In this document: piece after piece, positions 1,600-30,285 of the stretch
Layout of the letters: each line of letters opens with the position of its first letter
How positions within the stretch are numbered: the stretch's first letter is position 1
Assembly (NCBI GenBank): GCA_028875725.1
Contig: JAPPCR010000006.1
Span: 813,786 to 877,785, forward strand
Origin: Acidobacteriota bacterium
Lineage (GTDB): Bacteria > Acidobacteriota > Thermoanaerobaculia > Multivoradales > Multivoraceae
Length of the DNA: 64,000 nucleotides
Reading direction: 5' to 3'
The notes under the pieces: generated by a model
What the model was told of the DNA's origin: nothing
Database searches by the model: none
What the model saw: only the letters and a program-made list of their open reading frames with translations
Translations under genes and position numbers: made by a program

Positions 1600-1744
1600 T
1601 GTGATTCTCCTTCTGCGTTGGGCGGTGGCCTCTGTTCTTGGCTGAGCGGCGGCAATCCTACGACTTGGTGTCGGGTGGCACTGACAGGCCGTGCCTTGAC
1701 GCCGGATGCCTTACCAGAATAGCCTCGACGGTAAGGAGATCGAG

Positions 1745-1987: not shown

Positions 1988-2384
1988 CACCTCGGTCCTG
2001 GTGCGTTTGCTCACCGGGGAACCCAGGGAGGACTTCCTGGACTGCGTCGCCGGGCTGATCTTGCTGGTCGAGCACGAGGGAAGCGAGATCTTCGCCTCGA
2101 ACCAGGTGATCGGCGAGGCGTACGTTGCCGTTCAGCATCACTACAGGGTGTCGAAGCCGGAGGTCCGAGCCGGGCTGCTCGAGGTGCTTCGCAGTGGCCT
2201 CGTCTCGCCACTCAACGGGCGCGCGGTGTTCGCGGCGCTGGAAGCGAGTGGCGGCCCGGGCTTGTTCAATCGTCTGATCGCCGATGACTACTCGCGCGCC
2301 GGGTTGGAGGTTCTGACCCTGGACCGCAGGATGGCGGACCTGGCCGGCGTGTCGCGCCTGAGCGTCCCCCGTCCCGGCGGCTAG
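1965..2384 (+). CDS. PIN-domain ribonuclease toxin (VapC-like)
   Basis: A 139-residue PIN domain protein, predicted Mg2+-dependent endoribonuclease. Visible acidic positions are the N-terminal Asp in FGIDTSVLVRLL, the Glu in VIGEAYVA and the Asp residues in LIADDYSRAG and LTLDRRMADL, which match the PIN active-site pattern. I chose ATG 1965, which puts the first strand at the N-terminus; an in-frame ATG eight codons upstream is possible. It overlaps the AbrB-type antitoxin gene by 23 bp. Its 3' end is covered on the opposite strand by the C-terminal tail of the large repeat protein gene (overlap 2266-2384). Confidence 0.8.
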   Translation: MTRRFGIDTSVLVRLLTGEPREDFLDCVAGLILLVEHEGSEIFASNQVIGEAYVAVQHHYRVSKPEVRAGLLEVLRSGLVSPLNGRAVFAALEASGGPGLFNRLIADDYSRAGLEVLTLDRRMADLAGVSRLSVPRPGG

Positions 2385-6189: not shown

Positions 6190-6353
6190 CGTGTCTTCTC
6201 CCTGGTTGTCGTAGCCCGAGCGCTACACGCACCACTCTAGAGAGGCGAGGGGAAGAACGCCGGACACCAGGTTGCGGATTCCGGCCATGTTCGCTCAAGA
6301 CTGGCCATTCTCGGCCCTCCGTCTCGTTCGCAGCGGCGGGATGCCACGCGCCG

Positions 6354-7664: not shown

Positions 7665-7857
7665 GCGATGCGACCTCGGTGGAGGGCGAGGCATGGCGAA
7701 TCGGCGGCCCGCTGGACAGCCTAGCAGTGCCTGGCGGCAGTGGCGCTGCGTTCGACTCGTGTTGGGGTGCCGCTCATCGCTTGACGAACCGCCCCGGATC
7801 TGTTCGTCTTCATCGACGGTTCACGCGGGTGCGGCAGCGCGCCCCGGAGGGAGATGA

Positions 7858-8073
7858 ATGGCAGGGCATCGAACGAGTCTGCTGGTTGCTCTGGTCGTGG
7901 CGCTGATCCTGCCGCAGGCGGCTCACGCCTACCTTGATCCAGCATCTGGCAGCATGATCCTGCAGGCGGTGATCGGTGGCGTGGCGGCCGCTGCGCTCGC
8001 CTTCAAGTACTACTGGCGGCGTATCCAGGCCTTCTTCGGCTACGGCAGCAACGACGAGCCAGAGTCCGAGTAG
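7858..8073 (+). CDS. Small membrane protein with YLDPxSGS motif
   Basis: A 71-residue protein with a signal-like hydrophobic N-terminus (LLVALVVALILPQAAHA), then the motif YLDPASGS at residues 25-32. A second hydrophobic stretch (MILQAVIGGVAAAALAF) leads into a basic YYWRRIQAFFGYG segment and an acidic tail. I recognise the YLDPGSGS-plus-YWRR layout from uncharacterised small proteins, often found near polysaccharide or methyltransferase genes; that is recollection, not a search. ATG 7858 is supported by GGAGGGAG at 7846-7853. Its stop codon shares one base with the GTG start of the methyltransferase gene, so the two are translationally coupled and probably work together. No function is known to me. 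Confidence 0.82.
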   Translation: MAGHRTSLLVALVVALILPQAAHAYLDPASGSMILQAVIGGVAAAALAFKYYWRRIQAFFGYGSNDEPESE

Positions 8074-9485
8074 TGCGAGCCGGGGCCGCGCGCGAGTCCC
8101 AGGCCGAGCCTTCGTCCTTCCGCGATCCGGCGGGGCAGGTGATCGAGGGCCGAGACGGCCGCATCTTCCGCAGCGTCGCCCCGGTAGCGGTCGAGGAGTA
8201 CCGCTATGTGCGGGCGTGCGGTCTCGTCGATGCACTGGTCGTAGAGGGCGGGCTGGTGGCGGCGGAGGAAGTGGATCCGGTCGAGGCCGGCGTCCTGCCA
8301 CCGCCCGGGGGGTTGGTCCTGGAGCATCCCCGGCTGCCCTTCATCTCCTATCCGTACGAGTGGCCCTTCTCGCTGCTGAAGGAGGCGGCACTCCACCACC
8401 TGGAAACACAGATCCGGCTTCTCGACAGGGGCATCTCGCTCTCCGACGCGAGCGCCTACAACGTGCAGTTCAAGGGCGCCAAGCCGGTGTTCATCGACTG
8501 GCTGTCGCTGCGGCGCTACCGCGAGGGCGAGTACTGGGAGGGCCATTCGCAGTTCTGCGAACAGTTCCTGAATCCCCTGTTGCTGGCCTCGGAGCTCGGT
8601 GTGCCTCACAACGCCTGGTATCGCGGAATGCAGGAGGGGGTCCCGGGCCGCGAACTGGCGGCTTTGCTGCCGCGTCGGAAGCGCTTGTCACCAAGAATGC
8701 AGGCCCATGTCCTGCTGCCGCTTCGCTTCGAACGGCGAGCCGACTCGCGCAGTGATGCGGCGAAACGGACGGAGAGACGCCCGCTGCCTCGCAACGCATA
8801 CCGGGGTCTCCTGACCCAGCTTCGGCGCTGGATCAAGAGTCTCGAACCCAAGGGCACGGACACGACCTGGAGCGATTACTCCCTGCTGACGAGCTACGAC
8901 ACGGGCGAAGCCTCGCGCAAGGCTGAATCGGTTCGCTCTTTCATTGCCAAGGCGCCGCCGGAGCAGCTTTGGGATCTCGGCTGCAACACGGGCGAGTTCG
9001 CCGCGATCGCCCTGGAGGAGGGCGTTCGCAGCGTGATCGGCTTCGATTCCGACTTCGGCGCGTTGGAGAGCGCCTGTGCCCGGGCGCGTTCGGATCGCCT
9101 GCGATTCCTGCCCCTCTACCAGGACCTCGCCAACCCGTCGCCTGACCAGGGCTGGTCCCAGACAGAGAGGCGCTCGCTGGCGCGCCGTTCCCGGAGCGCT
9201 GACGCCCTGGTGGCGTTGGCCGTGCTACACCACCTGGCCATCGGCCGCAACGTGCCGTTGCCTCGAATTGCCGCGTGGCTCGTTTCCCTCGCTCCGCGCG
9301 GACTGGTCGAGTTCGTTCCCCAGGGCGACCCGAGGGTAGACGATTTGCTCACGTTGCGCGGCGATCGCTTCGCCGACTACACGCCGGAGGCATGGGAAGC
9401 GGCGCTCGAGCCGTACGCCGCGATTCGTCACGTGGAGACGGTCTCGGCCAGCGGCCGGCGACTGTACACCTACGAGCGGAGGTGA
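8073..9485 (+). CDS. SAM-dependent methyltransferase with kinase-like N-terminal region
   Basis: A 470-residue protein. The C-terminal part (from about residue 290) is a class I methyltransferase: motif I is LWDLGCNTGEFA with Asp301, followed by VIGFDSD and ALVALAVLHHLAIG. The N-terminal part contains LSDASAYNVQF (Asp125, Asn130) and then PVFIDWLSL (Asp142). This reproduces the D-x4-N and following metal-binding Asp of aminoglycoside-phosphotransferase/protein-kinase active sites, so a kinase-like domain is inferred. Database entries of this layout are usually just called class I methyltransferases. The GTG start overlaps the stop of the small YLDP protein by one base. Substrate is unknown; a cell-surface or lipid/polysaccharide substrate is suggested only by the membrane-anchored partner. 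Confidence 0.8.
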   Translation: MRAGAARESQAEPSSFRDPAGQVIEGRDGRIFRSVAPVAVEEYRYVRACGLVDALVVEGGLVAAEEVDPVEAGVLPPPGGLVLEHPRLPFISYPYEWPFSLLKEAALHHLETQIRLLDRGISLSDASAYNVQFKGAKPVFIDWLSLRRYREGEYWEGHSQFCEQFLNPLLLASELGVPHNAWYRGMQEGVPGRELAALLPRRKRLSPRMQAHVLLPLRFERRADSRSDAAKRTERRPLPRNAYRGLLTQLRRWIKSLEPKGTDTTWSDYSLLTSYDTGEASRKAESVRSFIAKAPPEQLWDLGCNTGEFAAIALEEGVRSVIGFDSDFGALESACARARSDRLRFLPLYQDLANPSPDQGWSQTERRSLARRSRSADALVALAVLHHLAIGRNVPLPRIAAWLVSLAPRGLVEFVPQGDPRVDDLLTLRGDRFADYTPEAWEAALEPYAAIRHVETVSASGRRLYTYERR

Positions 9486-9493
9486 AGACTTGG

Positions 9494-12400
9494 CTACGGT
9501 TCGACTCGCTGCTCAGGGTGCAGTCGAATCACCAGCCCCTCCTGGCGCTGCCCCGGGGCGATGTTCAGGGGGATCAGCGCGCCTTGGTAGCCGTCGCTGG
9601 TGACCCATAGCCGCTCGGCTCCGGGGCCGAGGTGGATCTCGAATCTCCCGGCATCTGCGCTGAAGTCGTGGCCGGCGATCCGGGCTGACCGATAGACGGC
9701 CTGGTCGTCGCCGGCTCTCGCGACGGCCGCCATACCTGCGGCATCGCCAGCCGTCAGATAGACGTCCCGGAGCGGCAAGTCGGTCGTCGCGTCGAGGACG
9801 ATTCCGGACAGGATGGCCTCGGGCTGAAGATCGATCCGGAGGCCGTCGAGGTCTGTCTGCAGCTCGATCGACCGGTACTCCGTGCCGCCGGAGGGGGAAG
9901 AAACTGCCAGGCGATAGGAGCCGGCTTCCAGCCCCTCCAGCTCGAAGCGGCCCTCCTGATCGACCTCCGCGTGCGCTGCTCTCTCGCGCCCAAGGTGTTG
10001 GGCGCGCAGGTGCACGCCGACCAGAGGTTCGCCGGCGGCCAGCACCTGCCCGGTCAGCCGGAGACCGCGTTCGAACGGAAGCTCGACGAACTCCTCCGCG
10101 CCGGCCGCTTCGATCGTCACGGCGCGTTCGACGGAACGAGCCGTGAAGGAATCGCCGCGTCTGGCGAAGACCTGCCAGGTGCCGGGCGCCAGGTTCTCCA
10201 TGGTGAAGTTGCCTTCGGTGTCCGGCGTGGCGCTTTGCCACTGCGCAAGCCGCGTCGCGGTGATCGTCACCTGCGCCAGATCGGCGGGCGGCAGGCCGGT
10301 GACGGCGCCCCTGAGGGAGGCGCCGGATTCGAGCACGATCTCGACGCCGGCTGCGCCTCCGCCATCGACGTCGATCGGTTCTGCGGGGCCGCTTTCCGCG
10401 TGCCCGGCTGCACGGGCGACGAGGAAGTAGCGTCCGGCCTCCAGACCAGTGAGGTGAAAGGAGCCGTCGCTGCCGGACACCGTCGTGGTCGGCGGATGCA
10501 CGTACTTTCGCAGGTAGATTGCCGTGTTCGCGGCCTCCTCGGGATGGGCCTCGACGGTCGCCGAGGCCGGAGCGCCGTTGGCGAACCGGACGAAGCCGTT
10601 GATCTCGCCGCCGGCCTGGAGTTGGACTGCCATCTCGGTGTTTCCGGGGCCGACGACGATCTCCCGTGTGTCGTCCGGGTGTTCTGGATGCTGGACAGTC
10701 AGTGTGGCCGGGCCTGCGGTGACGTCGAGTCGGGCGCGTCCGCTGCCGTCCGTCGTGCCGTACTCGCTCGATTGGCCTGCGTCCTTCGGCTCCAGTCGAA
10801 TCCGCGCTTCGGTGACGGGTTGCCCGGAGGAAGCCGTCACGATGACCGTCAGACGGTCCTGGGCGTGAAGCCGCAGTTCGACCGTCCGCTCGGATCCGGA
10901 AACGAACTCGAGACGATCGGAGCGGGCGGCCTCGCTGCCGGCGCTCGCTTCGACGAACCAGAGTCCTGGAATCACGTGCCCGAAGCTGAAGCGGCCGTCG
11001 CCATCGGTCCGTGTCCTCGTATCTCTCAAGTACCAGTCGCGCACCCGCATTCGGGTCGAGTCGTCAGGCTCCAGGTTGACTCGGGCGCCGACAGCAGCGG
11101 TCCCCGCAGCCGTCAGTACGCGGCCCGAGAGAGAGGCGCCTCGCGCGAGTTGGATCAGGATCGGCTCCCCGGTGGCCGGTCGTGCCCCTTGAAGCGTGGA
11201 CAAGGCGTAGCCCTCCGCTTCGACCGTGAGATCGACCTGCTCGTGCGGAAGTCCGGCAAGCCGGAAGTTGCCGTCCGCGTCCGTTGTGGCCGTCCGTTCC
11301 TGGTCGCGGGCCCAACTGTAGCTGCGGAACCGTATGCTCGCTCCCTCGACTGGTTCCCGCTCGGGGCCGACGACAACACCGAGGATCTCGGCGCCTGGAA
11401 CCAGCGTGAACTCCCCGAGGTCGATCTCTCCCCGCCCTTCGGGAACTTCGACCGGGAGAGCGCCGGGGCTGACGTGCTCGCTGTGGGACACGTTCACGTT
11501 GTACTCGCCAGTGTTCACGGCGGCGATCCGGAACGCCCCCTGTTCGTTGGTTGCGACCGCTTCGGTGGCGTCCTCCCTAAGGAGGCTCGCGAACCTTGAC
11601 TGCTTCTCTTCCGGCCACGTCAGCTTGACTTCCGCACCGGTCACCGGGTTGCCGTCGGTGTCGACGACACGGCCGCGGGCCTGACGACCATTGGCCAGCC
11701 GGATCCGGACCGGACTGGCGGCCGCGCCGGGCTCGTAGGGTGGCAGCTCGATGGCGGAACTGGGGAATCCCGCGGCCCGGATCGTGAGCCGGTACGGGTT
11801 GCCGTAAACGATGCCGGACATTCGGAATGAACCGTTGTCCGCCGAGGTCGCGTCCGGCGGCCAGATGGCGATCATGCCGGTGATCGAATCCGTGGTTCGA
11901 GGCCGGGCCGAGATGTCTGCACCGGCAACCGGCTGGCCGGCGGGGTCCGTGACAAAGCCATAGAGCGGAGCCGCCGGTCTCAATGCGACCGCCGTCTCGT
12001 TGGTTACGCCGTCCTCAGGGACTAGTGCACTCACACCCGTTGCGACGTAGCCTTCGGCCTGGACCCACAGGCGCCTCGATTCTCTTCGGGGCCTGGATTC
12101 CAGCAGGAACTCGCCAGTGGGAGCGCTCAACGCGTTCTCGCCGGGGGCGCCCACGACCCAGATCGCTGCGTTCTCGACTGGAGAGCCGGAAACGCGATCG
12201 ATGACGCGACCCGGAATCCGGAGCGGCGGTTCCAGCCGAGAATCGACGATGCGTTCAAAGGCAGCAGGGGCGGAGGCCGCGGCATCGGGCTGGGAAACCC
12301 GGGCGAAGGCATTGTCCCAGCCCAGCAACTCGAAGGCGATCCCGGTGCCGGCGACCTTGCCGGCGGTGACGTCGCCTTGTTCGTCGGTTAGTGCCAGGGG

Positions 12401-17366: not shown

Positions 17367-19790
17367 TCAGGCGACAATGCCGCGGCCGCGGCAGGCGGCG
17401 ATCTCGTCGGCGGAGAGCCCGAGGACATCGGCGAGGACGGCGTCGGTGTGCTCGCCGAGCAGGGGCGCCCGGCGGGGGCTCAGATCGCGACCCGCGATAC
17501 GAAACGGCGGCCCGACGAGTTCCAGGTCTCCCCATTCCGGGTGCTCGACGGTGGCGAAGGAGCCCCGGGCCCGCAGGTGGGAGTCGGCGTAGAGATCCCG
17601 GGCATCGCGCGACGGAGCGGCGGCGACACCGGTCCGCAGGAGTTCGCGGGCCAGCCAGTCGCGGTCCCGCTCCCTGGTCCAGGCGGCGACGATCGCGTCG
17701 AGTTCCGTTTCGTTCTGCTTCCTGGCCGTTGCGGTTGCGAAGCGCGGGTCCTCGGCCAGCTCTGGCCGGCCCATCGTCGCCGTGAGCCGGGCGAACTCCT
17801 CGTCGCTGTGGACCTCGATGGCGAGCCAGCGGTCGATTCCCCAGCAGCGATAGACGCCGTGCGGCGCCGAATGGCGGTGCGAGTTGCCGGCGCGTTCCGG
17901 GACTTCCCCCGTCATCTCGTACTCGAGGAGGATCTCGCCGAGGATCGAGCTCACGCCCTCGCACTGCGAGTAGTCGATGAACTGGCCTTGGCCCGTGCGG
18001 CTGCGGTGATGCAACGCGGCGACGATCGAGAAGGCGAGCGTGATCGCGTTCATCAGGTCGACGTCGCCGCCGCTGTGAGTCGGGTGATCGTCCGGGTAGC
18101 CGGAGATCCAGGCCCCGCCGGCCACGCCCTGGTGGACCATCGCGTAGCCGAGGTACTCGGTTTCCGGGCCGCCGTGGCCGCGTCCCGACGAGGAGGCCAC
18201 GATGAGCTCCGGGTTTGCGCGGCGGAGGTTCTCGTAGTCGAGGCCGAGCTTGACCATGGCGCCGGGACGCATGTTGTCGTAGATCACGTCGCACTCGCCG
18301 GCGAGGCGCAGGGCGAGTGCGCGGCCTTCCGCCTGCGACAGGTCCAGGGCCAGCGACCGCTTGTTCAGGTTCATCGTGTTGAACGCCATGCCGGCGTCCT
18401 CACCGATCTTCTGCGGCGCCTCCTCGGCGCGGGGCCAGACCACGGAGCGGCGCGTCAGGTCGAGGCGCCTGGGTCCTTCGACCTTGATTACTTCGGCGCC
18501 CAGGGTCGAGAGCAGGACGCCGGCGTAGGGGCCCGCCCACACCCAGGCGAACTCGGCGACGCGTATGCCCTCGAGCGGGAGCTTACGCGTCGCGGGTGGA
18601 GCGGTTGGGACCGAGCCGGCGGCAACCGGAGCGCCGTTGCCGGCCGCGGCGACTTCGGCGAGGACCTCGCTCGAATGTTCGCCGAGCTGTGGCGCCGGGC
18701 GCGACACCTTCGGCCTGGAGGCGTCCATACGGTACGGCCAGCCGGCGTAACGCTTCGCCCCGGTGCTTGGGTGGTCCACTTCGACGAAGTAGTCGCGAGC
18801 GGCGTACTGCTGGTAGTCCATCACGTCCGCGGCGTCGTGGATCGGTCCGACCGGAATGCCCAGGTTGGCGGCGCGGTGGTACAGGTCGTCGCGTTTCTGT
18901 TCGAGGGCCCAGGCGTCGACCTGGGGAGCGATCTCCATCAGGTGATGGCTGCGGTAGGCCATGTCCTTCCATTCGTCGCCCTGGCACCAGTCCGGATTGC
19001 CCATCAGTTCGCGGAACAGCTCGAAGTGATGGTCGTCGAAGGCGTTCAGGATGACGTAGCCGTCGCTCGTCTTCAGCCTGCCCATGGCCGGCGGGCGGTC
19101 CGGCACCCGCGACCAGGTCGTTTCGTGGTAGCGGGCGCTGGCCAGAAGCGGCGCCACCAGGCTGATCATCACGTCCTGCATGGAGACGTCGACCCGGGCG
19201 TCGCCGGCGTGACCGCGTTCGTAGAGGAGGGCAGCGACCGCCAGCGCCGTCACCAGACCGGCGTGGTAGCCGGCCTGGTGGCCGCCCAGGGCGACCGGCG
19301 CGCGGTCGATGTCGCGGGAGCGGGCCGGCATCTGGTTGACCAGTCCGCCGCCGTGCGTGAGCGTGAGTTCGCCGGCGGGCGCTCCCGAGCGGGGTCCTGT
19401 GAGGCCGTAGGGCGTGACCGCCGCGACGATCAGGTCCGGCGGCGTCTCCGCCGGCGGTTCGCGGTCGACGATCAGGGCGTCGGCGGTCCGGAGCAGGCTG
19501 TCGAGGGCGCCTCGATCGTCCTCGTCGTCCAGGTCGAGGACGACTCCCCGCTTGCTCGTGTTGCAGTAGAGGAAGAGCGGCGAGCCTTCCGGGTCGGAGC
19601 CGTTCGCCCAGCGGGCGGCGTCGCCCGCGGGCGGCTCGACCTTGATCACGTCGGCGCCGAGGTCGGCAAGCAGCTTGCCGCAGTACGGGCCGGCGACGCC
19701 CTCCGCGAGTTCGACGATCCGGAGGCCGGCGAAGGGGCCGGTTCCGTCGAGGGGACTCGCGGCCGATCCCGGTGGGTCTGGTCTGGTCAT
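17367..19790 (-). CDS. Tandem family III CoA-transferase (CaiB/BaiF, two fused domains)
   Basis: An 807-residue protein consisting of two full CaiB/BaiF domains in one chain. Domain 1 starts FAGLRIVELAEGVAGPYCGK and domain 2 starts LEGIRVAEFAWVWAGPYAG (about residue 410). Both keep the GADVIKVE-type strand and the LLGEHT C-terminal motif. The catalytic Asp of the family (Asp169 in formyl-CoA transferase) aligns with Asp578 in domain 2, but with a Gly (QAGYHAGL) in domain 1, so probably only domain 2 is chemically active. The DMSP CoA-transferase DddD has this architecture, but I cannot assign that substrate. ATG 19790 overlaps the serine hydrolase stop by four bases. Confidence 0.88.
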   Translation of the reverse strand: MTRPDPPGSAASPLDGTGPFAGLRIVELAEGVAGPYCGKLLADLGADVIKVEPPAGDAARWANGSDPEGSPLFLYCNTSKRGVVLDLDDEDDRGALDSLLRTADALIVDREPPAETPPDLIVAAVTPYGLTGPRSGAPAGELTLTHGGGLVNQMPARSRDIDRAPVALGGHQAGYHAGLVTALAVAALLYERGHAGDARVDVSMQDVMISLVAPLLASARYHETTWSRVPDRPPAMGRLKTSDGYVILNAFDDHHFELFRELMGNPDWCQGDEWKDMAYRSHHLMEIAPQVDAWALEQKRDDLYHRAANLGIPVGPIHDAADVMDYQQYAARDYFVEVDHPSTGAKRYAGWPYRMDASRPKVSRPAPQLGEHSSEVLAEVAAAGNGAPVAAGSVPTAPPATRKLPLEGIRVAEFAWVWAGPYAGVLLSTLGAEVIKVEGPRRLDLTRRSVVWPRAEEAPQKIGEDAGMAFNTMNLNKRSLALDLSQAEGRALALRLAGECDVIYDNMRPGAMVKLGLDYENLRRANPELIVASSSGRGHGGPETEYLGYAMVHQGVAGGAWISGYPDDHPTHSGGDVDLMNAITLAFSIVAALHHRSRTGQGQFIDYSQCEGVSSILGEILLEYEMTGEVPERAGNSHRHSAPHGVYRCWGIDRWLAIEVHSDEEFARLTATMGRPELAEDPRFATATARKQNETELDAIVAAWTRERDRDWLARELLRTGVAAAPSRDARDLYADSHLRARGSFATVEHPEWGDLELVGPPFRIAGRDLSPRRAPLLGEHTDAVLADVLGLSADEIAACRGRGIVA

Positions 19791-21565
19791 CGGAGCTTGT
19801 ACGCCTCCCTCGCGGATCGCAGCCAATCGTGCTGGTCCTTGTCGCCGAAGTAGTAGAAGACGGCGCCGTTCGGCAGCATGAGGACGCCGATGCCGCCGTA
19901 GCCGAGCATCTGCCGGACCCAGACCTGCTTCGTGCCGGTCCCGTCGGTCACCTGGATCTGCCGCGACCAGATGGAGTTGTTGTACTTGTTCGGGTGGCCG
20001 TTGTGGACGGCGTCCAGGCCGCGGTCTTCCTCGTCTTCCTGCATCGCGGCGGCCACCATGCCCGGATGGAGCACCTGCCGGTCGCCGATCCGGCCGCGCT
20101 GGGCGTTCAGCAGGTTGGCGATCTTCAGGATGTCGTCCGGGGTCCAGAACATGCCGTAGCCGCCGAAGACGTAGCCATCGGCCCGGTTATCCGTGCGCAG
20201 CGACTGGAGCGCCCCGGCGGAGACACCCAGCGGTCGGTAGACCTCGGCGGCCAGGAACTCCAGCAGGTCCGCGGGTTCCCTGGACGAGGCGCCCGCCTGC
20301 TGTCCCAGGTAACCGCTCATGGCGACGGACAGCAGAAAGGCGTCCGTCGTGTGGTACACCCAGCGCTTTCCGGGCGGCTCCTTCGTCGGATAGGCCATGG
20401 CGCCCCGCAGCTTGCGGTTCCGGTGCTCCGGCACGAAGAAGTTCAGCTCGGTCGTCGAGTTCTTCTCGTCGTCCTGTTCGCCCGTGTCCCAGTAGTGACC
20501 GGTCGCCATGTCGAGAGCGTGCTCGAAGGTCACCCCGCGGAAGCTGCCCCTGGGCGGCTTGTGTACGTAGTCCCGAAGCTCGAGTTCGGTCACCTCGAAG
20601 CCGTCCCGCTGCGCCAGCCGCATCAGCGCGACGGCGGCGACGGCGGTCTTGGCGGTGGAGTAGGACGGCAGCCGGATCTGCTCGGGATACGGGTAGTCGC
20701 CGTAGCGGGTGTGGACCGGGCCCTGGTAGTGGACTCCGCCGAAGGAGACGCCGAAGGCGGTGAGGTGCTCGCGGTCGAAGCCGCCACCGAAAGCCTGCGG
20801 GTAGACCTGGGCGCGCGGGTAGTCGTCGCGGATCCGTTCGATCGACCGGACAGACAGCCGCGAGGCGGCTTCGGCGGCGTAAGCCTCGAGCACGGCGTCT
20901 GCGTCCGGCGGCTCGCCGGAGGTGAAGCGGGTGGGGCCCGCGTCCCAGAGGTCGAACTTGAAGTACTTGCAGGTTTCCTGAGTGGCCTGGAAGGCCGCCG
21001 GCGAGGTGGCGCCGCCGTCGAACAGGAAGGACACGACGCCGTGGTAGGCGCAGTTCTGGTTGCGCTCGACCAGTGTGATCGGCAGCGACGCCCGGCTCCT
21101 GCCGCCGTCGGCGTTCTCGCTCCAGATCCGGCCCGGACCGACGATGACGTTCCAGTAGGCGTCGCCGGTGTAGCGGAGCGCGCGATTGGCGGGCACCAGG
21201 TGGGAGCCGCTCTGGACCAGGACAACGTCGAGCCGCGGGATGCGGCGGAGGGCTGAGACGATCGGCGGCTCATCCGCCCGCAGGTAGGTGTCGTGGTGGA
21301 CGGTCCAGGAGGCTCCGCCGCCGCCGAAGAGCTGCAGCGTGCCTCGCATCTCGTGGCGCGGCGGCGCGGCGTTCTCCGGCAGGGCGAAGGCCGCGTTGTC
21401 CACGGGCGTTGGGAGTTCGCCGGCCAGTAGCCGGGACGCCGGCAGCAGGGTCCGCGCGACGTCGCCCGAGCCGGCGAGAGGATCGCCGGGCAGTTGGACG
21501 GTGGCCGCCGCGGGCAGGGCGGCGGCCGTGCAGACGGTCCAGAAAAGGGCGGCGAATCGGGCCAT
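19787..21565 (-). CDS. Exported serine hydrolase (beta-lactamase/PBP-like)
   Basis: A 592-residue protein with an N-terminal signal peptide (LFWTVCTAAALPAAA). The SxxK motif of class C beta-lactamase/esterase-fold enzymes is visible as SYSTAKTAVA (Ser-Thr-Ala-Lys). The second motif looks like YHTTDAF in place of YxN, followed by FGGYGMFWTPDD and a C-terminal GYGGIGVLML in the region of the third motif. A ~250-residue N-terminal extension before SxxK contains WNVIVGPGRIW and a Cys pair, and is unassigned. It is probably a periplasmic esterase or peptidase, not an antibiotic-inactivating enzyme. Its stop overlaps the CoA-transferase start (ATGA), so the CoA ligation may act on its product. Divergent from the exonuclease gene. 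Confidence 0.82.
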   Translation of the reverse strand: MARFAALFWTVCTAAALPAAATVQLPGDPLAGSGDVARTLLPASRLLAGELPTPVDNAAFALPENAAPPRHEMRGTLQLFGGGGASWTVHHDTYLRADEPPIVSALRRIPRLDVVLVQSGSHLVPANRALRYTGDAYWNVIVGPGRIWSENADGGRSRASLPITLVERNQNCAYHGVVSFLFDGGATSPAAFQATQETCKYFKFDLWDAGPTRFTSGEPPDADAVLEAYAAEAASRLSVRSIERIRDDYPRAQVYPQAFGGGFDREHLTAFGVSFGGVHYQGPVHTRYGDYPYPEQIRLPSYSTAKTAVAAVALMRLAQRDGFEVTELELRDYVHKPPRGSFRGVTFEHALDMATGHYWDTGEQDDEKNSTTELNFFVPEHRNRKLRGAMAYPTKEPPGKRWVYHTTDAFLLSVAMSGYLGQQAGASSREPADLLEFLAAEVYRPLGVSAGALQSLRTDNRADGYVFGGYGMFWTPDDILKIANLLNAQRGRIGDRQVLHPGMVAAAMQEDEEDRGLDAVHNGHPNKYNNSIWSRQIQVTDGTGTKQVWVRQMLGYGGIGVLMLPNGAVFYYFGDKDQHDWLRSAREAYKLR

Positions 21566-21612
21566 GTCGGCTGATGGTAGCTTGCCGGCGTCACCCGGAT
21601 GCGGCGCCCGCC

Positions 21613-22524
21613 ATGTACGTCCACCTGATCGACGGCACCTACGAGCTCTTCCGCCACCACTTCGGTGCGCCGAGCTATCGCAACGAGGACGGGCTCGAGG
21701 TGGGAGCGGTGCGTGGAGTCGTCTTCTCCTTGCTGGGCATGTTCCGGGATGGGGCGACCCACGTGGCGGTGGCGACGGACCACGTGATTGAGTCGTTTCG
21801 CAACGACATGTGGCCCGGCTACAAGACCGGCGAGGGGATCGAGCCGGAGCTTCTGGCTCAGTTCCCGGTGCTCGAGGACGCCCTGGACGCGCTCGGGGTC
21901 ACGGTCTGGCCGATGGTGGAGCACGAGGCGGACGACGGACTCGCCAGCGGCGCCGCGATGGCGGCCGCGGATGAACGGGTCGTTGAGGTCCGCATCTGCA
22001 CGCCGGACAAGGACCTGGCCCAGTGCGTCGACGCCGGCCGGGGCGGCCGGGTAGTGCAGGTCGACCGGCGGCGTGGCCTGCGCTGGGACGCGGACGGCGT
22101 CCGGGACAAGTTCGGGGTGGAGCCGGAGTCGATCCCCGACTATCTCGCCCTGGTCGGCGACAGCGCGGACGGATTCCCGGGCTTGCGGGGTTGGGGCGCA
22201 AAGTCGGCGGCCACCGTGCTGGCGCACTATGTCCACCTGGAGGAGATTCCGGACGAACCGTGGAAGTGGGCGGTCAAGGTGCGCAGCCGGGATCGGCTGG
22301 CGGCGACTCTCAGGGAGGAACGCGAAGCCGCGGAGCTGTTCCGCGAGCTCGCCACGCTGGTGCGCGATGCGCCGGTCAGGGGTTCCGTCGACGAGCTTCG
22401 GTGGCGAGGACCCGCCCCGGAACTGGAGGCGATGGCCGAGAGGTTGAAGGCGCCGGGGCTCGTGCAGCAGGCTGAGCGGCTCGCCGGCGAGTGGGCCGAA
22501 GCGGACGACGCGGTCCCCTTCTGA
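21613..22524 (+). CDS. 5'-3' exonuclease (FEN/PIN-like, PolA N-domain type)
   Basis: A 303-residue stand-alone 5'-nuclease related to the N-terminal domain of DNA polymerase I. Metal-binding acidic residues are seen in HLIDGTYELFR, EHEADDGLASG, CTPDKDLAQ and LVGDSADGFPGLRGWGAKSA, the last being the helix-three-turn-helix DNA-binding segment. It is predicted to remove RNA primers or flaps. ATG 21613 begins the conserved first strand; the frame is open further upstream, but that stretch is antisense to the serine hydrolase gene. It is divergent from that gene with 47 bp between starts. MetF follows 40 bp downstream on the same strand. Confidence 0.88.
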   Translation: MYVHLIDGTYELFRHHFGAPSYRNEDGLEVGAVRGVVFSLLGMFRDGATHVAVATDHVIESFRNDMWPGYKTGEGIEPELLAQFPVLEDALDALGVTVWPMVEHEADDGLASGAAMAAADERVVEVRICTPDKDLAQCVDAGRGGRVVQVDRRRGLRWDADGVRDKFGVEPESIPDYLALVGDSADGFPGLRGWGAKSAATVLAHYVHLEEIPDEPWKWAVKVRSRDRLAATLREEREAAELFRELATLVRDAPVRGSVDELRWRGPAPELEAMAERLKAPGLVQQAERLAGEWAEADDAVPF

Positions 22525-22564: not shown

Positions 22565-24355
22565 GTGAAACTGATCGACAAGCTGCGCACCGCGGCGTCC
22601 GAGAGACGGCCGTTCTACTCGTTCGAGTACTTCCCTCCGAAGACGGAGGCGGGGATCGAGAACCTTTACGCGCGCATTGAGCGCATGGGACGGCTGGAGC
22701 CGGCGTTCGTCGACGTGACCTGGGGCGCGGGCGGCAGCACCGCTGAACTTACCTTCGAGCTCGCGAGCACGATCGAGAACGTGCTCGGCATCGAGACGAT
22801 GATGCACCTGACCTGCACCAACATGCCGCGCCGGAAGATCGCGGCGGTGCTCGAGAACTGTCGCGAGCGCGGCATCGGCAACATCCTGGCCTTGCGCGGC
22901 GATCCGCCGCGCGGAGGCGGCGCCTGGTCGCCCGTCGCCGACGGCTTTTCCCACGCTTCGGACCTGGTGCGGTTCATCCGCGAAGAGCACGGGGACCACT
23001 TTGGAATCTGTGTGGGCGGTTACCCGGAAGGTCACCCGGAGGCTTCGAGCCGGGAGCGCGATCTCGACTATCTGGCCGAGAAGGTTGCGACCGGAGCGGA
23101 CTTCGTGATCACGCAGATGTTCTACGAGCCGGAGCTGTACTTCCGCTTCCTGGGGGACTGCCGGGAGCGCGGCGTGGACTGTCCGATCGTTCCGGGACTG
23201 GCGCCCATCAACGGATACCTGTCCTTTCAGCGCATCACGGGCTTCGGCGCCAGTGCGCCGCCCGAGATCGTCAGCGAGATCGAGGCGCGGCGGTTCCACG
23301 ACGCGTCCGTGCGCGAGTACGGCCAGGATCTGTTGGCCGGCATCTGTCGCCGGCTGCTCGACGGCGGCGCGCCCGGCCTTCACTTCTACACCCTGAACCT
23401 CGAGCGTTCGGTGCAGGTCATCCTCGACCGCCTCGGCATCGTGCCGGAGCGCATCGAACGGGTCCTGCCGTGGCGGAGCGCGACGGCGGTTCAGCGCCCC
23501 AGGGAGGACGTTCGCCCGATTTTCTGGGCCAACCGGCCGAAGAGCTACCTCGCCCGGACCCAGGACTGGGACGAGTTTCCGAACGGGCGCTGGGGCGATG
23601 CCGGTTCACCCGCGTTCGGCGATCTCGGCGATCACCATCTCGCCTTCCGACCGATCAAGGCCGATGTGGCCCGTGAGCGGTGGGGCCGCGAGCTGCCCTC
23701 GATCGACCAGGTGCGGGAGGTCTTCGCGGGTTTCTGTCGCGGCGACGTCGACGGGATCCCCTGGTACGACTGGCCGTTGGACCTGGAGAGCGAACCGCTG
23801 CGCAGCGCCCTTGTGCGGCTGAACCTGGCGGGTCTGCTGACGATCAACTCGCAGCCGCGCGTGAACGGCGCTGCTTCCGACGATCCCGCGGTCGGCTGGG
23901 GCGGCGCTGGAGGCCGCGTCTACCAGAAGGCGTACCTGGAGTTCTTCGTGGCGCCGGAGCAGGTGTCGCCGCTACTGGCCGCACTGGACCGGAAGCCGAG
24001 CCTGACGTACCACGCGATCGACCGGTCCGGTACGGCCTGGAGCAACTGCGACTCGGTCAACGCGGTGACCTGGGGCGTGTTCCCGGGCGAGGAGATTCGC
24101 CAGCCGACGATCGTCGACCCGCGTTCCTTCGAGGTCTGGAAGGACGAGGCCTTCGACCTGTGGCTGTCCTCCTGGGCGGCGGTGTACGAAGAAGACAGCG
24201 AGTCACGCCGCCTGCTCCAGAGGATCCACGACACGTACTTCCTCGTCAACGTGGTCGACAACGACTACGTCGATGGCGATCTGCTCGGTTACCTGCTCGA
24301 GGCGGTTCAGGCGGAGGAGCCGCCGTCCATGACGATCGTCGCTCCCGTCACGTAG
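22565..24355 (+). CDS. metF: Methylenetetrahydrofolate reductase, eukaryotic-type two-domain form
   Basis: A 596-residue MTHFR, reducing 5,10-methylene-THF to 5-methyl-THF with FAD for methionine synthesis. Residues 1-300 are the TIM barrel: YSFEYFPPKTEAG with the catalytic Glu, DVTWGAGGST, LALRGDPP, GGYPEGHPEA and GLHFYTLNLERS. Bacterial MetF normally ends here at about 300 residues. This protein continues through a linker into a second domain starting EDVRPIFWANRPKSY (Glu314), with WDEFPNGRWG, LTINSQPRVNG, VGWGGAGGRVYQKAYLEFF, NAVTWGVFPG (Asn499) and VNVVDNDYVDGDLL. These match the SAM-binding regulatory domain of human and yeast MTHFR almost motif for motif. The start is GTG 22565. SAM feedback inhibition is inferred. 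The 3' end overlaps the convergent SDR gene by 49 bp. Confidence 0.93.
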   Translation: MKLIDKLRTAASERRPFYSFEYFPPKTEAGIENLYARIERMGRLEPAFVDVTWGAGGSTAELTFELASTIENVLGIETMMHLTCTNMPRRKIAAVLENCRERGIGNILALRGDPPRGGGAWSPVADGFSHASDLVRFIREEHGDHFGICVGGYPEGHPEASSRERDLDYLAEKVATGADFVITQMFYEPELYFRFLGDCRERGVDCPIVPGLAPINGYLSFQRITGFGASAPPEIVSEIEARRFHDASVREYGQDLLAGICRRLLDGGAPGLHFYTLNLERSVQVILDRLGIVPERIERVLPWRSATAVQRPREDVRPIFWANRPKSYLARTQDWDEFPNGRWGDAGSPAFGDLGDHHLAFRPIKADVARERWGRELPSIDQVREVFAGFCRGDVDGIPWYDWPLDLESEPLRSALVRLNLAGLLTINSQPRVNGAASDDPAVGWGGAGGRVYQKAYLEFFVAPEQVSPLLAALDRKPSLTYHAIDRSGTAWSNCDSVNAVTWGVFPGEEIRQPTIVDPRSFEVWKDEAFDLWLSSWAAVYEEDSESRRLLQRIHDTYFLVNVVDNDYVDGDLLGYLLEAVQAEEPPSMTIVAPVT

Positions 24356-25164: not shown

Positions 25165-27642
25165 GTGACAGATCATCCGTGCTCCAACCTTCGCGTGATC
25201 GAGGTCGCCGGCTCGCCAGCCGGCGCCTATGCGGGACGGCTGTTGGCGGCATGCGGTGCGGAAGTGCTGCGGCTTGAACCGCCCGAAGGCGATCCGTGGC
25301 GTGAGGCTGGCGAGCGTTGGCAGGGCCTCGGAGCTGAGTATGCGTACCTGAATGTCGGCAAGCGGGCGGGGCGTCTGCGGCAGAGTACGGACGGCGGCCG
25401 AGGGCAGATCCTGGAGTTGATCGAGCGCGACGGCGCCGACATCGTGATCGAGAGCGCCGCGCCGGGGGCGCTCGAACCGCTGATCGATGAGGCCGATACG
25501 CCGCAGGCCGTGCTGCTGCGGATCTCACCGTTCGGCCTGGGTTCTGCGGCGCGCGAGGTCTGGGGCGAGGCGGGACCGCCGCGGTCGAACGGCTTCACGG
25601 ACGACGCCTGGTCCGGTCACCTCTACCTGAACGGTGCTCCGGACCGGGAGCCCATCGCGCGGCCGGGGCTCCACTCGTCCTGTCAGGCGGGCGCCCACGC
25701 GGTGATCGGCGGTCTGGCGGCACTGCTGGCCCGGCCCGCGATCGGCCGCGGCCAGACGATCGACGTCTCCCACGTCGAGGCGCTGGCCGCTCTGCACCAG
25801 TACACGACGGTGATGTGGACCCAGGCCGGGTACGTCCTCGGCCGGGTCGGCAACTCCCAGGGCGGGCCGTGGCATCCGGTCGGCGTTCATCGCTGTCAGG
25901 ACGGCTACGTTGCCCTCTCGATACCGAGTCGGGAGATGCTCGAGCCCTTCCTCGAGGCGGCGGGCCTGGCTCATGTCCTGGAGGACCCGCGCTTCGCCGA
26001 GGATGCCGACCGGGCTCAACACCGAGAGGAGTTCGACCGGGCGATCGATCCCTGGATGATGGCCCACACCGAGGCCGAGATCATCGAGCTGGGCGAGCGG
26101 GTCCGCGTGCCGATCGGTCCGGTGATCGACGCGCTGGAGGTGCTGGACGACCCGCACTTCCGGGCCCGCGGTTTCTTCGTGCCGATCGACGGCGACGGCG
26201 GGCCGCTCGTTCCGCGTGGGCCGTTTCTTCTGAACGGCACGTCGTCGTCGTCGGCCATCGATTCCTCGGTTGCGCGAACGGCGCCGGCGATGGACGGGGT
26301 TGCCGGTTGGCAGGCGCGGAGGACCGGCATGGCTCAAAGGTCGTCGCCTTCCGCGTTGACCGACGGGCCCCTCCATGGCCTCCGCGTGCTGGATCTCACC
26401 AGGGTCTGGGCGGGACCGTTGGCTATGCGAATGCTGGGCGATCTCGGCGCCGATGTGATCAAGGTCGAGGCCGCCTGGGCGCGTGGGCCGGCGACCCGGT
26501 CGGCAAGGATCGCCCGTCTCACGCACCTGTTCCCGGAGAACGATGCCGGGAAACGCTCGTACAACCGCAACGCCGCGTTCAACAAGATGAACCGGAACAA
26601 GCGGTCCGTGACCCTTGAGTTGAGCGAGCCGGAGGCCCGAGGCATCTTCGAGGCCCTGGTGGAGCGGGCGGACGTGGTCTGCGACAACTTCAGTCCCCGG
26701 GTGATGCCCAAGCTCGGCCTCGACTCGGATCGACTGCGGGAACTCAACCCGGGCGTCATCGCGGTCTCGATGCCCGGTTTTGGCAACTCGGGCCCCTACC
26801 GGGACCGGCTCGCGTTCGGTCCGCTGATCGAGTCAGCGATGGGACTCACGTCCGCGCTCGGCTACCGGGACGGCGGCCCCCACCGGTCGGGCATCGCCTG
26901 GCCGGATCCGATGACGGCTCTGCATACCGCCGTCGGGACCCTGGCCATGCTCTACGGCCGCTCGCAGTCGCCGGAGGGCCGGGGCGGCACGGTCGAAACT
27001 CCGATGGTGGAGGCGATGGCGACGATGTTCGGCGACCACATCCTGGCGGCACAGCTTCGTGGATCGGCAGAACCGCGTCGCGGCAATCGCCATCCCGTGC
27101 GGGCGCCTCAGGGCTGCTATCCGTGCCGGGGAAAGGACCGGTGGGTCGCGATAAGCGTGCGGGATGAACGGGAGTGGCGGACGTTTTGCGGCGTCGTCGG
27201 CTTGCCGGAGGTGTTCGCCTCCCAGTCACTGGCGGAGCGGCAGGCGGACGAGGACCGGATCGACGAGGTGCTCTCCGAGTGGACCCGCAGCTGGGATCGA
27301 GACGACCTGGTCGCCCTTTTGCTCCGCGCCGGCGTCACCGCGGCGCCGGTTGCCGACGCCCGCGACATGGCGGAGGACCCGTTTCTCGAAGCCCGCGGCT
27401 TCTGGGCCGAGGTCGATCACCCGGAAGTCGGCCGCCGCCGCTACCCCGGCCTGCCGATCCACCTGAGTGCGACGCCCGCGACGTACCGGCGCGGCGCTCC
27501 TTGCCTGGGCGAGCACAACCGAGAGGTTCTCGTCGAAGTCTTGGGATTTCCGGCGTCGCGGGTGGACGAGTTTGAGGGAGCCGGGCTGCTCACGGACAGG
27601 CCGCCCGAGGGCGCCACCGGACGGGGGATCAGGAAGGAGTAG
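25165..27642 (+). CDS. Tandem family III CoA-transferase (CaiB/BaiF, two fused domains)
   Basis: An 825-residue protein with two CaiB/BaiF domains (starts near LRVIEVAGSPAGAYAGRLL and LRVLDLTRVWAGPLAMRML), joined by a Ser/Ala-rich linker near residue 370-390. It has the same architecture as the 807-residue protein at 17367-19790 but is clearly diverged. The nucleophilic Asp aligns with Asp581 in domain 2 (WPDPMTALHT). In domain 1 the aligned residue is Ser (SSCQAGAHAV), so domain 1 is probably a structural partner of the interlocked fold. The start is GTG 25165. A VOC-family gene follows four bases after its stop, suggesting a shared pathway. Substrate unknown; DddD is the best-known relative with this arrangement. 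Confidence 0.88.
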   Translation: MTDHPCSNLRVIEVAGSPAGAYAGRLLAACGAEVLRLEPPEGDPWREAGERWQGLGAEYAYLNVGKRAGRLRQSTDGGRGQILELIERDGADIVIESAAPGALEPLIDEADTPQAVLLRISPFGLGSAAREVWGEAGPPRSNGFTDDAWSGHLYLNGAPDREPIARPGLHSSCQAGAHAVIGGLAALLARPAIGRGQTIDVSHVEALAALHQYTTVMWTQAGYVLGRVGNSQGGPWHPVGVHRCQDGYVALSIPSREMLEPFLEAAGLAHVLEDPRFAEDADRAQHREEFDRAIDPWMMAHTEAEIIELGERVRVPIGPVIDALEVLDDPHFRARGFFVPIDGDGGPLVPRGPFLLNGTSSSSAIDSSVARTAPAMDGVAGWQARRTGMAQRSSPSALTDGPLHGLRVLDLTRVWAGPLAMRMLGDLGADVIKVEAAWARGPATRSARIARLTHLFPENDAGKRSYNRNAAFNKMNRNKRSVTLELSEPEARGIFEALVERADVVCDNFSPRVMPKLGLDSDRLRELNPGVIAVSMPGFGNSGPYRDRLAFGPLIESAMGLTSALGYRDGGPHRSGIAWPDPMTALHTAVGTLAMLYGRSQSPEGRGGTVETPMVEAMATMFGDHILAAQLRGSAEPRRGNRHPVRAPQGCYPCRGKDRWVAISVRDEREWRTFCGVVGLPEVFASQSLAERQADEDRIDEVLSEWTRSWDRDDLVALLLRAGVTAAPVADARDMAEDPFLEARGFWAEVDHPEVGRRRYPGLPIHLSATPATYRRGAPCLGEHNREVLVEVLGFPASRVDEFEGAGLLTDRPPEGATGRGIRKE

Positions 27643-27646
27643 GAGC

Positions 27647-28099
27647 ATGGGAGAAGCGCCCGCGGGCACGACGCCCACGACGCGACCGCGACAACTCGAC
27701 CACATTCTTGAGGCCTCCCTCTATGTGAGCGATCTCCAAGTGGCGGAGGTCTTCTACACCGAGGTGCTGGGACTGACCTTTCACTCGAAACTCGAAGGGA
27801 GGCACGTGTTCTTCCGCTGCGGTGAGCAGATGGTCCTGCTCTTCAACCCGGTAGCGACGGCCGACCCCGATCTGACGCCACGGGGCCTCGGATTGCATGG
27901 CGCTCACGGCCCGGGTCACCTGGCGTTCGGTGTGACCGAGGACGAGATCGACGTCTGGCGCGCGCATCTGGAGTGCCACGGCGTCGAGATCGAGCAGGAG
28001 ATCGACTGGGGCGGCCGCAGGGGCCGATCGATCTACTTTCGCGACCCGGACGGAAACAGCCTGGAGTTCGCGACGTCTGCGTTGTGGGGCTTGGCCTAG
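27647..28099 (+). CDS. VOC family (glyoxalase/dioxygenase-fold) protein
   Basis: A 150-residue vicinal-oxygen-chelate protein with two beta-alpha-beta-beta-beta units: ILEASLYVSDLQVAEVFYTE in the first half and GHLAFGVTEDEID to IYFRDPDGNSLEFA in the second. Candidate metal ligands are His in LDHILEA, His in GHLAFG and Glu in NSLEFA. ATG 27647 has AGGAG directly upstream; the frame is open for 60 more codons but those overlap the CoA-transferase. It could be a glyoxalase, epimerase or ring-cleavage type enzyme. Being downstream of a CoA-transferase, a methylmalonyl-CoA epimerase-like role is conceivable but not shown. Its stop overlaps the convergent gene's stop by four bases. Confidence 0.87.
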   Translation: MGEAPAGTTPTTRPRQLDHILEASLYVSDLQVAEVFYTEVLGLTFHSKLEGRHVFFRCGEQMVLLFNPVATADPDLTPRGLGLHGAHGPGHLAFGVTEDEIDVWRAHLECHGVEIEQEIDWGGRRGRSIYFRDPDGNSLEFATSALWGLA

Positions 28100-29166
28100 C
28101 CGCCGGTCTGCGCTGCGACTTCCCTCTCTTCAAGGCGCGCGCCGCGCAGGGTATTCCCCAGGGAGTAGTTCCCCTCGTGACAGGCGTACTCGTAGAGCTT
28201 GCCGTCGGTCGCCGGCCAGGTGTACTCGGCGGTGTAGGGCGCTTCCCAGTCGCCGTTCTCGACGGTGAACCGGTAGAGGAGGGTGTTCGTGTCCTGGAAG
28301 GAGAACTGTTCGACCACGCGCTGATCGGCGGGAGGCGAGGGATCGCCGTAGAGGGCGAAGGTCACCCAGTTCTCTTCCTGGAAGTTCGTCGTCTCGACGA
28401 CGAGCGTGTCGCCTTCCCACCAGGCCACGGAGTCACCGGCCCGCGAGCGGTAGCCGGGGGGCGCGTGGCGGGCCGCCTCGCGGGACGGGTTGATCGGGAT
28501 GATCCTCGCGTAGTGCATCCACTCGATCAGGATCATCAGGTGGGTGTCGGTCTGCACGACCGTCTTCAGGTTGTTGTAGAACTTCGGGTAGATCGGGATC
28601 GTTCCCTCGAGCGAGAAGATGCAGCGGTCGGCGATCGACAGCGACTCGGGGTCGTCGTAGGGGCCGACCTCGCGGTCGCGCCACCACGCCTTACCCTGGT
28701 TCTGCAGGAAGAACCCGTAGACGCCTTCCCGGCGCGCCTTGCCGCGTTCCGTCAGCGGCGGGAAGCGGCCGTTCGGCGGATCGACGATCAGCGACGTGCG
28801 GTACCTGCCGCCGACCTTGACCGCCGACGTGCCGCGGTCCATGTAGAAGTAGTTGTAGCCGCCGACACTGGCCCCCGCCGCGGGCGCGTCGCGGTCCGGG
28901 TCGCTGGCCCGGGCGGTGAGATCGACCCTCGCCGCTTCCTGTGAACGGATCCGCTCCGCCTCTTCCTCGGTCAGGTGGAGGCGTTCACCGAGTTCGGGGC
29001 TCCGCTCGATCGGCGTCAGGGTGCTGATGTCGTAGTTGCCGGAGAAATCGGGCTTGCCGCTCGACGTCCTGGGAATCTCGTCCGCCACCGCGGCGGTCGC
29101 GGCCACGGCGACCAGGAACGCAGAGGAGAGGACGCCGGCGCGGTCTCGGTCGCCTGGCAAGCTCAC
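28096..29166 (-). CDS. Secreted hypothetical protein, GKPDFSGNYD family (copy 1)
   Basis: A 356-residue exported protein of unknown function. It has an N-terminal signal (LSSAFLVAVAATAAVA), then SGKPDFSGNYDIS, then DPPNGRFPPLTERGKARR, a core with LIEWMHYARIIPI and WWEGDTLVVETTNF, and ends with YEYACHEGNYSLGNTLRGAR. Proteins with this GKPDxSGxY start are very abundant in Acidobacteriota and similar soil/marine bacteria and are uncharacterised. The start is a GTG at 29166 overlapping the upstream paralogue's stop by four bases (GTGA); the longer open frame upstream is an artefact antiparallel to that gene. Identity to the upstream copy is roughly two thirds by eye. Confidence 0.82.
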   Translation of the reverse strand: MSLPGDRDRAGVLSSAFLVAVAATAAVADEIPRTSSGKPDFSGNYDISTLTPIERSPELGERLHLTEEEAERIRSQEAARVDLTARASDPDRDAPAAGASVGGYNYFYMDRGTSAVKVGGRYRTSLIVDPPNGRFPPLTERGKARREGVYGFFLQNQGKAWWRDREVGPYDDPESLSIADRCIFSLEGTIPIYPKFYNNLKTVVQTDTHLMILIEWMHYARIIPINPSREAARHAPPGYRSRAGDSVAWWEGDTLVVETTNFQEENWVTFALYGDPSPPADQRVVEQFSFQDTNTLLYRFTVENGDWEAPYTAEYTWPATDGKLYEYACHEGNYSLGNTLRGARLEEREVAAQTGG

Positions 29167-30230
29167 GGCCCGCCGCTCGCCTCGGCCGCCATCTGCCTCT
29201 CCTCGAAACGCGCCCCCCGCAGGGTGTTTCCGGTCGCGTAGTTGCCCTCGTGACAGGCGAATTCGTAGAGCTTGTCGTCCGTGGCCGGCCAGGTGTACTC
29301 GCCGCTGTAGGGCGTTTCCCAGTCTCCGCTTTCGAGCGTGAACTGGTAGAGCAGAGTGTCCGGGTCCTGGAACGAGAAGCGCTCGATCACGCGCTGGTCG
29401 GCGGGCGGCGACGGCTCGCGGAACAGGGTCGTCGCGATCCACTTCTCTTCCAGGAAGTTGGTCGTGTCGATGACGAGCGTGTCGCCTTCCCACCAGGCCA
29501 CCGAGTCGCCGGCGCGTGAGCGGATCGTCTCCGGGAGGTGCATCGCCGCCTCCCGGGACGGGCTGATCGGGATGATCCGCGCGTAGTGCATCCACTCGAT
29601 CAGGATCAGAAGGTGGGTGTCGGTCTGCACGATCGTCTTGATGTTGTTGTAGCTCTTCGAGTAGATCGGGATCGTCGCTTCGAGCGAGAAGACGCAGCGA
29701 TCGGCGATCGAGAGCGACTCGGGATCGTCGTAGGGGCCGACTTCGCGGTCGCGCCACCAGGCCGGACCGGTGTTCCTCTTGGAGAAGCCGTAGAGACCTT
29801 CCCGTCGCGCCTTGCCGCGCTCGGTCAACGGCGGGAAGCGGCCGTTCGGCGGGTCGGTGAGCACCGACGTGCGGTACTTGCCGTCCACCTTGACCGCCGA
29901 CGTCCCCCGGTCCATGAAGAAGTAGTTGTAGGCGCCGATGTTGCCGCCGGCCGCCGGGGCTTCGCGGTTCGGGTCGCTGGCCCGCGACCTCGTTTCGATG
30001 TTCTGGGCCTCCCGGCGCCGGATCTCGTCGGCTTCGGCCTCGGTCAGGGTCAGGCGCTCTCCTAGTTCGGGATTGCGCTCGATCGGCGTCAGGTGGGAGA
30101 TGTCGTAGTTGCCGGAGAAGTCCGGCTTGCCGTTCGGCGTCCTGGGAGCGTCGTCTGCTCCTCCGGCTCCGCCTGCACCGACGGCCAGAGTGAGAACGAA
30201 GGCAATGCGAGTTCTTCCCGTGATGCTCAT
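29163..30230 (-). CDS. Secreted hypothetical protein, GKPDFSGNYD family (copy 2)
   Basis: A 355-residue paralogue of the downstream gene with the same plan: signal peptide (IAFVLTLAVGAGGAGGA), NGKPDFSGNYDISHLTP, DPPNGRFPPLTERGKARR, WWEGDTLVIDTTNF and FACHEGNYATGNTLRGAR. ATG 30230 is supported by GGGAGGGG a few bases upstream. The two genes overlap by four bases and clearly arose by tandem duplication. Role unknown. The conserved CHEGNY motif near the C-terminus and repeated Trp/Tyr positions suggest a beta-rich periplasmic binding or enzymatic fold, which is inference only. Confidence 0.83.
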   Translation of the reverse strand: MSITGRTRIAFVLTLAVGAGGAGGADDAPRTPNGKPDFSGNYDISHLTPIERNPELGERLTLTEAEADEIRRREAQNIETRSRASDPNREAPAAGGNIGAYNYFFMDRGTSAVKVDGKYRTSVLTDPPNGRFPPLTERGKARREGLYGFSKRNTGPAWWRDREVGPYDDPESLSIADRCVFSLEATIPIYSKSYNNIKTIVQTDTHLLILIEWMHYARIIPISPSREAAMHLPETIRSRAGDSVAWWEGDTLVIDTTNFLEEKWIATTLFREPSPPADQRVIERFSFQDPDTLLYQFTLESGDWETPYSGEYTWPATDDKLYEFACHEGNYATGNTLRGARFEERQMAAEASGGP

Positions 30231-30285
30231 GCGAGCCCCTCCCGGCCGACTTCGTTCGATGTGCCGGCCATAGTAGATCGGCCTC

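Follow-up and report, generated by a model that had tools for sequence, protein, structure and literature searches.

The stretch of DNA analysed here (the window, 64,000 nucleotides) carries metF, a gene for a two-domain methylenetetrahydrofolate reductase (MTHFR), on the forward strand at 22565–24355. The reading frame starts with GTG and runs for 596 aa with no internal stop, and in an alignment of homologues its N-terminus (MKLIDKL) lines up with theirs. Three parts follow one another on the same strand: a catalytic TIM-barrel domain (PF02219; 22583–23437, residues 7–291, 346.2 bits by hmmscan); an inter-domain linker (23444–23662, residues ~294–366), in which P302, W303 and R311 correspond to human P348, W349 and R357; and the match to MTHFR_C (PF21895, "MTHFR, SAM-binding regulatory domain"), which takes in the end of the linker (23459–24289, residues 299–575, 322.5 bits by hmmscan against a cut-off of 27). 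The original prediction had placed the regulatory half at residues ~314–596 and aligned it over its whole length. All the motifs that it named are present in the same order, but the linker already begins at ~294 and the Pfam match at 299, and the match to the known enzymes stops at ~583.

A 5'-3' exonuclease-like gene (21409–22524, forward strand; PF02739 and PF01367) ends 40 bp upstream and is probably a chance neighbour, and metF faces a short-chain dehydrogenase gene. No methionine-cycle gene adjacent to metF was seen in the window, and no Rfam riboswitch scored at gathering level there. On both sides, the metF region is flanked by genes for proteins of 819 and 825 aa with tandem double CoA-transferase family III domains (17367–19826, reverse strand; 25165–27642, forward strand). 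A 592-aa protein with a beta-lactamase-family domain (PF00144) is encoded at 19787–21565 on the reverse strand, and an ORF of the same length with a similar start occupies the same place in the relatives L010 and L004. Further downstream, two neighbouring genes on the reverse strand (28096–29157 and 29163–30260) encode similar proteins that share the stretch SGKPDFSGNYDIS and have no Pfam match at 1e-5; the pair represents a tandem duplication within an uncharacterized family.

Both halves of the protein resemble characterized enzymes. In the catalytic half, E21, D50, T52, H81, D113 and Y275 correspond to human E63, D92, T94, H127, D159 and Y321, and the predicted structure of this domain superimposes on the Thermus thermophilus MTHFR with 1.6 Å over 284 residues. 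The protein passes the cut-off of TIGR00677 ("fadh2_euk"; 366.7 versus 310.05 bits) and fails that of the general TIGR00676 (277.5 versus 293.7 bits). When PDB was searched with phmmer, the best matches were the human (8qa4/6fcx, E ~1e-176) and Chaetomium (8uy1/8uy2, E ~1e-177) MTHFRs at ~592 bits each, colinear with residues 3–583; the last ~13 residues have no counterpart in either. We conclude that the ORF is confirmed as a two-domain, eukaryotic-type MTHFR and that a chance resemblance is ruled out.

Is the SAM pocket intact in the bacterial protein? We took the human contact residues for SAH/SAM1 and for SAM2 from published structures (PMC5995969, PMC11018872). All the site-1 residues (human P348, W349, E463, T481, S484, T560 and T573) and all the site-2 residues (human F384–W389, Q509 and W583) are identical in the window protein. 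The FPNGRW motif (23576–23593, residues 338–343), equivalent to human 384–389, is near-invariant in 31 bacterial homologues; in the human enzyme it shapes SAM site 2, and its closing of that site is confined to the inhibited state. E408 (23786–23788) is human E463, which contacts the ribose and forms a salt bridge to the SAM sulphonium (PMC5995969, PMC11018872). T426 and S429 of the LTINSQ motif (23837–23854, residues 425–430) are the adenine-contacting T481 and S484 (PMC5995969), and Q454 (23924–23926) is Q509, which bridges SAM1 and SAM2 (PMC11018872). T502, T515 and W525 (24068–24139) are T560 and T573, which contact the homocysteine moiety, and W583 of SAM site 2 (PMC5995969, PMC11018872). 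All of these features lie on the forward strand. Elsewhere, human T464 is S409, and in the stretch equivalent to human D289–A292 the residues D291 and A292 are kept, with Phe for D289 and His for N290. Loss of SAM-contact residues had been named beforehand as a point to check; mapped from the human structures, the contacts are retained.

This conservation extends beyond the window. In 31 bacterial proteins, 11 of the 13 contact columns are invariant versus 62 of 284 linker and domain columns (hypergeometric P 1.4e-6, a guide only, given the kinship among the rows and a choice of contacts made in part for their conservation among eukaryotes). Within the genus, dN/dS is 0.08 for the catalytic domain, 0.07 for the linker and 0.11 for the regulatory domain; as read from the sequences, these ratios of about 0.1 show that purifying selection acts on both domains. 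A model of the regulatory domain (residues 367–585) fits human 8qa4 with 2.3 Å over 218 residues (Z 24.1). The full-length model, built with 24 sequences, is of moderate quality at a pLDDT of 73.6 (72.0 for another model from 12 sequences) with the linker below 50, and neither model fixes the domain arrangement (full-length rmsd 13–17 Å). Taken together, the conserved pocket, the dN/dS values in the genus and the fold match make it very likely that the window protein would bind SAM or SAH.

How widespread is the two-domain form in bacteria? Of 902 genomes sampled across five bacterial phyla, 35 contain PF21895. The phyla were picked for already-found relatives, so this is not a bacterial average. 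Acidobacteriota account for 13 (of 297 genomes; 2 of 167 genera), the Marinimicrobia phylum for 11 (of 199), the Oligoflexales phylum for 7 (of 58), Planctomycetota for 1 (of 343) and the phylum of genome G297 for 3 (of 5). PF21895 was absent from all 14 control genomes. In each tested genome with a two-domain gene, that gene holds the sole PF02219 match, and members of the window's own family or order (G144, G015 and G230) carry a distant single-domain MetF (~200 bits, versus 349 for the window protein). The expectation that a eukaryotic-type two-domain enzyme is unusual in a bacterium holds in this sample: the form is patchy and rare (35/902), and no large, ordinary bacterial two-domain clade was found.

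We then consider the ancestry of the gene in trees that contain three eukaryotic sequences, human, Chaetomium and the catalytic part of yeast Met12; the main tree leaves out L077 and other long rows. In the catalytic-domain tree, the bacterial two-domain proteins and the three eukaryotic sequences stand apart from all single-domain proteins (99/99), and the MetFs of the window's family and order fall beyond a 100/100 branch. With the regulatory part included, the full-length tree recovers the two-domain clade at 100/99. Bacterial and eukaryotic two-domain MTHFRs thus share common descent. Because the single-domain MetFs of the family and order are so distant in the tree, the window gene is a replacement and not a local fusion: a two-domain gene, probably gained by horizontal transfer, took the place of an ancestral single-domain MetF. 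The window protein is 41–59% identical to other bacterial two-domain proteins and 45–52% to human and Chaetomium; these ranges are similar, so whatever event lies behind them is old, and no recent transfer took place.

In which direction did the gene travel? The original prediction offered a eukaryotic donor or a bacterial source of the eukaryotic form. The single shared clade fits both, and neither order is favoured: in AU tests with three eukaryotic sequences, monophyletic eukaryotes (p-AU 0.326) and monophyletic bacteria (p-AU 0.312) both survive, and the base of the regulatory-domain tree is weakly supported. The donor to the window lineage, or to a bacterium before it, may have been a eukaryote. 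Among the Acidobacteriota genera sampled, 2 of 167 have the gene, a patchy spread consistent with such a gift. In the full-length tree the eukaryotic rows are those closest to the window clade (97 SH-aLRT), and in the catalytic tree human groups with that clade (93/90). However, these groupings involve three eukaryotic sequences, are unstarred and have long branches, and the identities quoted above speak against a recent event. A fusion of bacterial origin, inherited or acquired by eukaryotes, can be entertained tentatively. Among the single-domain catalytic relatives found, the nearest come from bacteria (L085, 44% identity); the two-domain form occurs in five phylum-level groups, and DUF6919, to which the window protein gives a sub-cut-off match, stands alone in bacteria (PMC11701544). 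Yet a single bacterial clade is neither recovered nor rejected, the bacterial spread is sparse, and the bacterial identity of the closest relatives is biased by the collections searched, which offered no eukaryotic single-domain relatives.

In two marine Marinimicrobia, the two-domain gene is found among its metabolic partners. In L026, a SAM_alpha riboswitch, metH, the two-domain metF, metK and ahcY follow in order (2284–10535; Pfam assignments), and L025 has the same order behind its own riboswitch (1408–10589), with a MetH 62% identical to that of L026. In L023, metF, metK and ahcY lie in a row. The L025 and L026 loci tie a bacterial two-domain MTHFR directly to the SAM cycle. In both, a whole methionine-cycle locus brings riboswitch control and a putative allosteric MTHFR together. 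SAH hydrolase does not discriminate: it occurs in every one of the 23 genomes tested, that of the window included, whether or not they have the regulatory domain. The MetH activation domain of the window genome gives a partial, weak PF02965 match (142.7 bits; G000:C5:120539–121135). Such a divergent reactivation domain also occurs in the same genus and family, and most genomes outside the window family score ~340–440 bits.

Would SAM binding inhibit the enzyme? In the human protein, Tyr404 swings in, stacks on FAD and blocks the active site, and Tyr404Ala abolishes SAM inhibition (PMC11018872); Chaetomium Tyr361 stacks on FAD and blocks the active site likewise (PMC11183114). This tyrosine finger was not found in the window protein, in which the place of human Tyr403–Tyr404 is aligned with His357–His358 (23633–23638, forward strand), and His-His occurs throughout the window genus. 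Elsewhere among bacteria, most lineages keep Tyr at one or both finger places: Marinimicrobia have Tyr-His, and L030 of the Oligoflexales has Tyr-Tyr-Ile-Phe, close to the human Tyr-Tyr-Leu-Phe; L016 has His-Pro. A histidine could stack on the flavin in place of the tyrosine. The claim that the domain implies SAM feedback inhibition was nonetheless too strong, since the plugging Tyr is His here and the regulatory domain of Arabidopsis MTHFR is reported to be SAM-insensitive (PMC6414673), so that the presence of the domain does not by itself imply inhibition. Because the Tyr finger is replaced, we class the window protein with the two-domain MTHFRs without counting it among the proven SAM-inhibited enzymes; SAM binding would probably inhibit it.

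The domain may instead have been kept as in plants, for dimerisation and stability, perhaps with SAM/SAH binding but without inhibition. The His-His pair of the window genus and the Arabidopsis precedent fit such a role, and eukaryotic MTHFR dimerises via the regulatory domain (PMC13001107). We consider this unlikely: the pocket residues are invariant across distant bacteria beyond background, which argues against dimerisation alone because dimerisation would not need a ligand pocket, and FPNGRW, which shuts SAM site 2 in the inhibited state alone, is kept as well.

The gene belongs to a bacterium and is its sole MTHFR gene. The window genome (4.54 Mb, 98% complete, 0.03% contamination) contains one PF21895 and one PF02219 match by profile search, both in the window metF. 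A second, redundant MetF was sought in the same PF02219 search and none was found. The clade of this genome includes Candidatus Multivorans thiocomprendens (Acidobacteriota, Thermoanaerobaculia at NCBI), and from such relatives and the known habitat of that genus the organism is probably sponge-associated. All 11 genomes sampled from the genus carry the two-domain metF, and in the relative L027 it lies on a single-contig chromosome of 4.63 Mb. The window metF has a GC content of 0.673 versus 0.686 for the window, with equal GC3 in both gene halves. Most records are metagenome-assembled genomes, and a eukaryotic contig misbinned among bacterial ones might be suspected, but the fixation of the gene in the genus, the single-contig chromosome, the lack of introns, the bacterial neighbour genes and the window-like GC make contamination exceedingly improbable and, in practice, rule it out. 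Viral contigs scanned with the protein alignment yielded no relative; a plasmid search gave no record covering 80% of the window protein, and the matches listed were single-domain proteins.

We therefore favour, with reasonable though not high confidence, a model in which the window gene encodes the organism's only 5,10-methylenetetrahydrofolate reductase, a two-domain enzyme made SAM-responsive via its linker and acquired by replacement. The N-terminal FAD barrel would supply methyl-THF to the methionine cycle, and the C-terminal domain would hold SAH or two SAM molecules in the pocket known from the human enzyme. At high SAM, the regulatory domain may slow the catalytic domain through the linker; His357/His358, or some other stretch of the linker, would then do the plugging that the Tyr finger does in eukaryotes. 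A horizontally transferred two-domain gene, common to a few bacterial phyla and eukaryotes, would have replaced the ancestral single-domain MetF. More speculatively, and with some doubt, SAM feedback on MTHFR may not be a eukaryotic invention: the regulated two-domain enzyme may have long been present, or have arisen, in bacteria, where it would work in the methionine cycle next to a SAM riboswitch, with the finger swapped for His-His in the window genus.

The regulatory domain has been described as without sequences beyond eukaryotes (PMC5995969) and as absent from bacteria (PMC11183114), and the two-domain MTHFR as typical only for eukaryotes (PMC11701544). That the SAM-regulatory domain is eukaryote-only and prokaryotic MTHFR not SAM-regulated is a recurrent statement, up to a February 2026 review (PMC5995969, PMC11183114, PMC11018872, PMC13001107). 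Our search of the open literature found no earlier report of a bacterial two-domain MTHFR, though protein databases may list such sequences. What we describe is an enzyme of a known kind, with an altered finger, in organisms that were said to lack it. The eukaryote-only claim is contradicted by these bacterial enzymes, which have both domains and an intact pocket, and the claim that prokaryotic MTHFR escapes SAM regulation becomes testable. The Tyr-Tyr, Tyr-His and His-His fingers are natural variants for testing the plug mechanism, and the bacterial proteins are evidence on the source of the eukaryotic form.

Compared with known systems, the window protein has the catalytic barrel and FAD/folate residues in common with the single-domain MetFs of E. 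coli and Thermus thermophilus, which, unlike it, lack the linker and the regulatory domain. DUF6919 (PF21897) is related to the regulatory domain and resembles it in its pocket residues, but in bacteria it stands alone, with no MTHFR attached and no assigned function (PMC11701544); it matches window residues 375–480 at 24.3 bits, under its cut-off of 27. Compared by published description, Arabidopsis MTHFR has two domains like the window protein and is reported to be homodimeric (PMC13001107) and NADH-dependent, with a C-terminal domain insensitive to SAM (PMC13001107, PMC6414673). The human (6fcx, 8qa4–8qa6) and Chaetomium (8uy1, 8uy2) enzymes share with the window protein both domains, the linker, the order of motifs and the SAM-site residues, with 52% and 48% identity, respectively, over the regulatory domain and linker. 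The window protein differs from both in being bacterial, in lacking the N-terminal Ser-rich phosphorylation region, and in having His-His for Tyr403–Tyr404 and Ser for Thr464.
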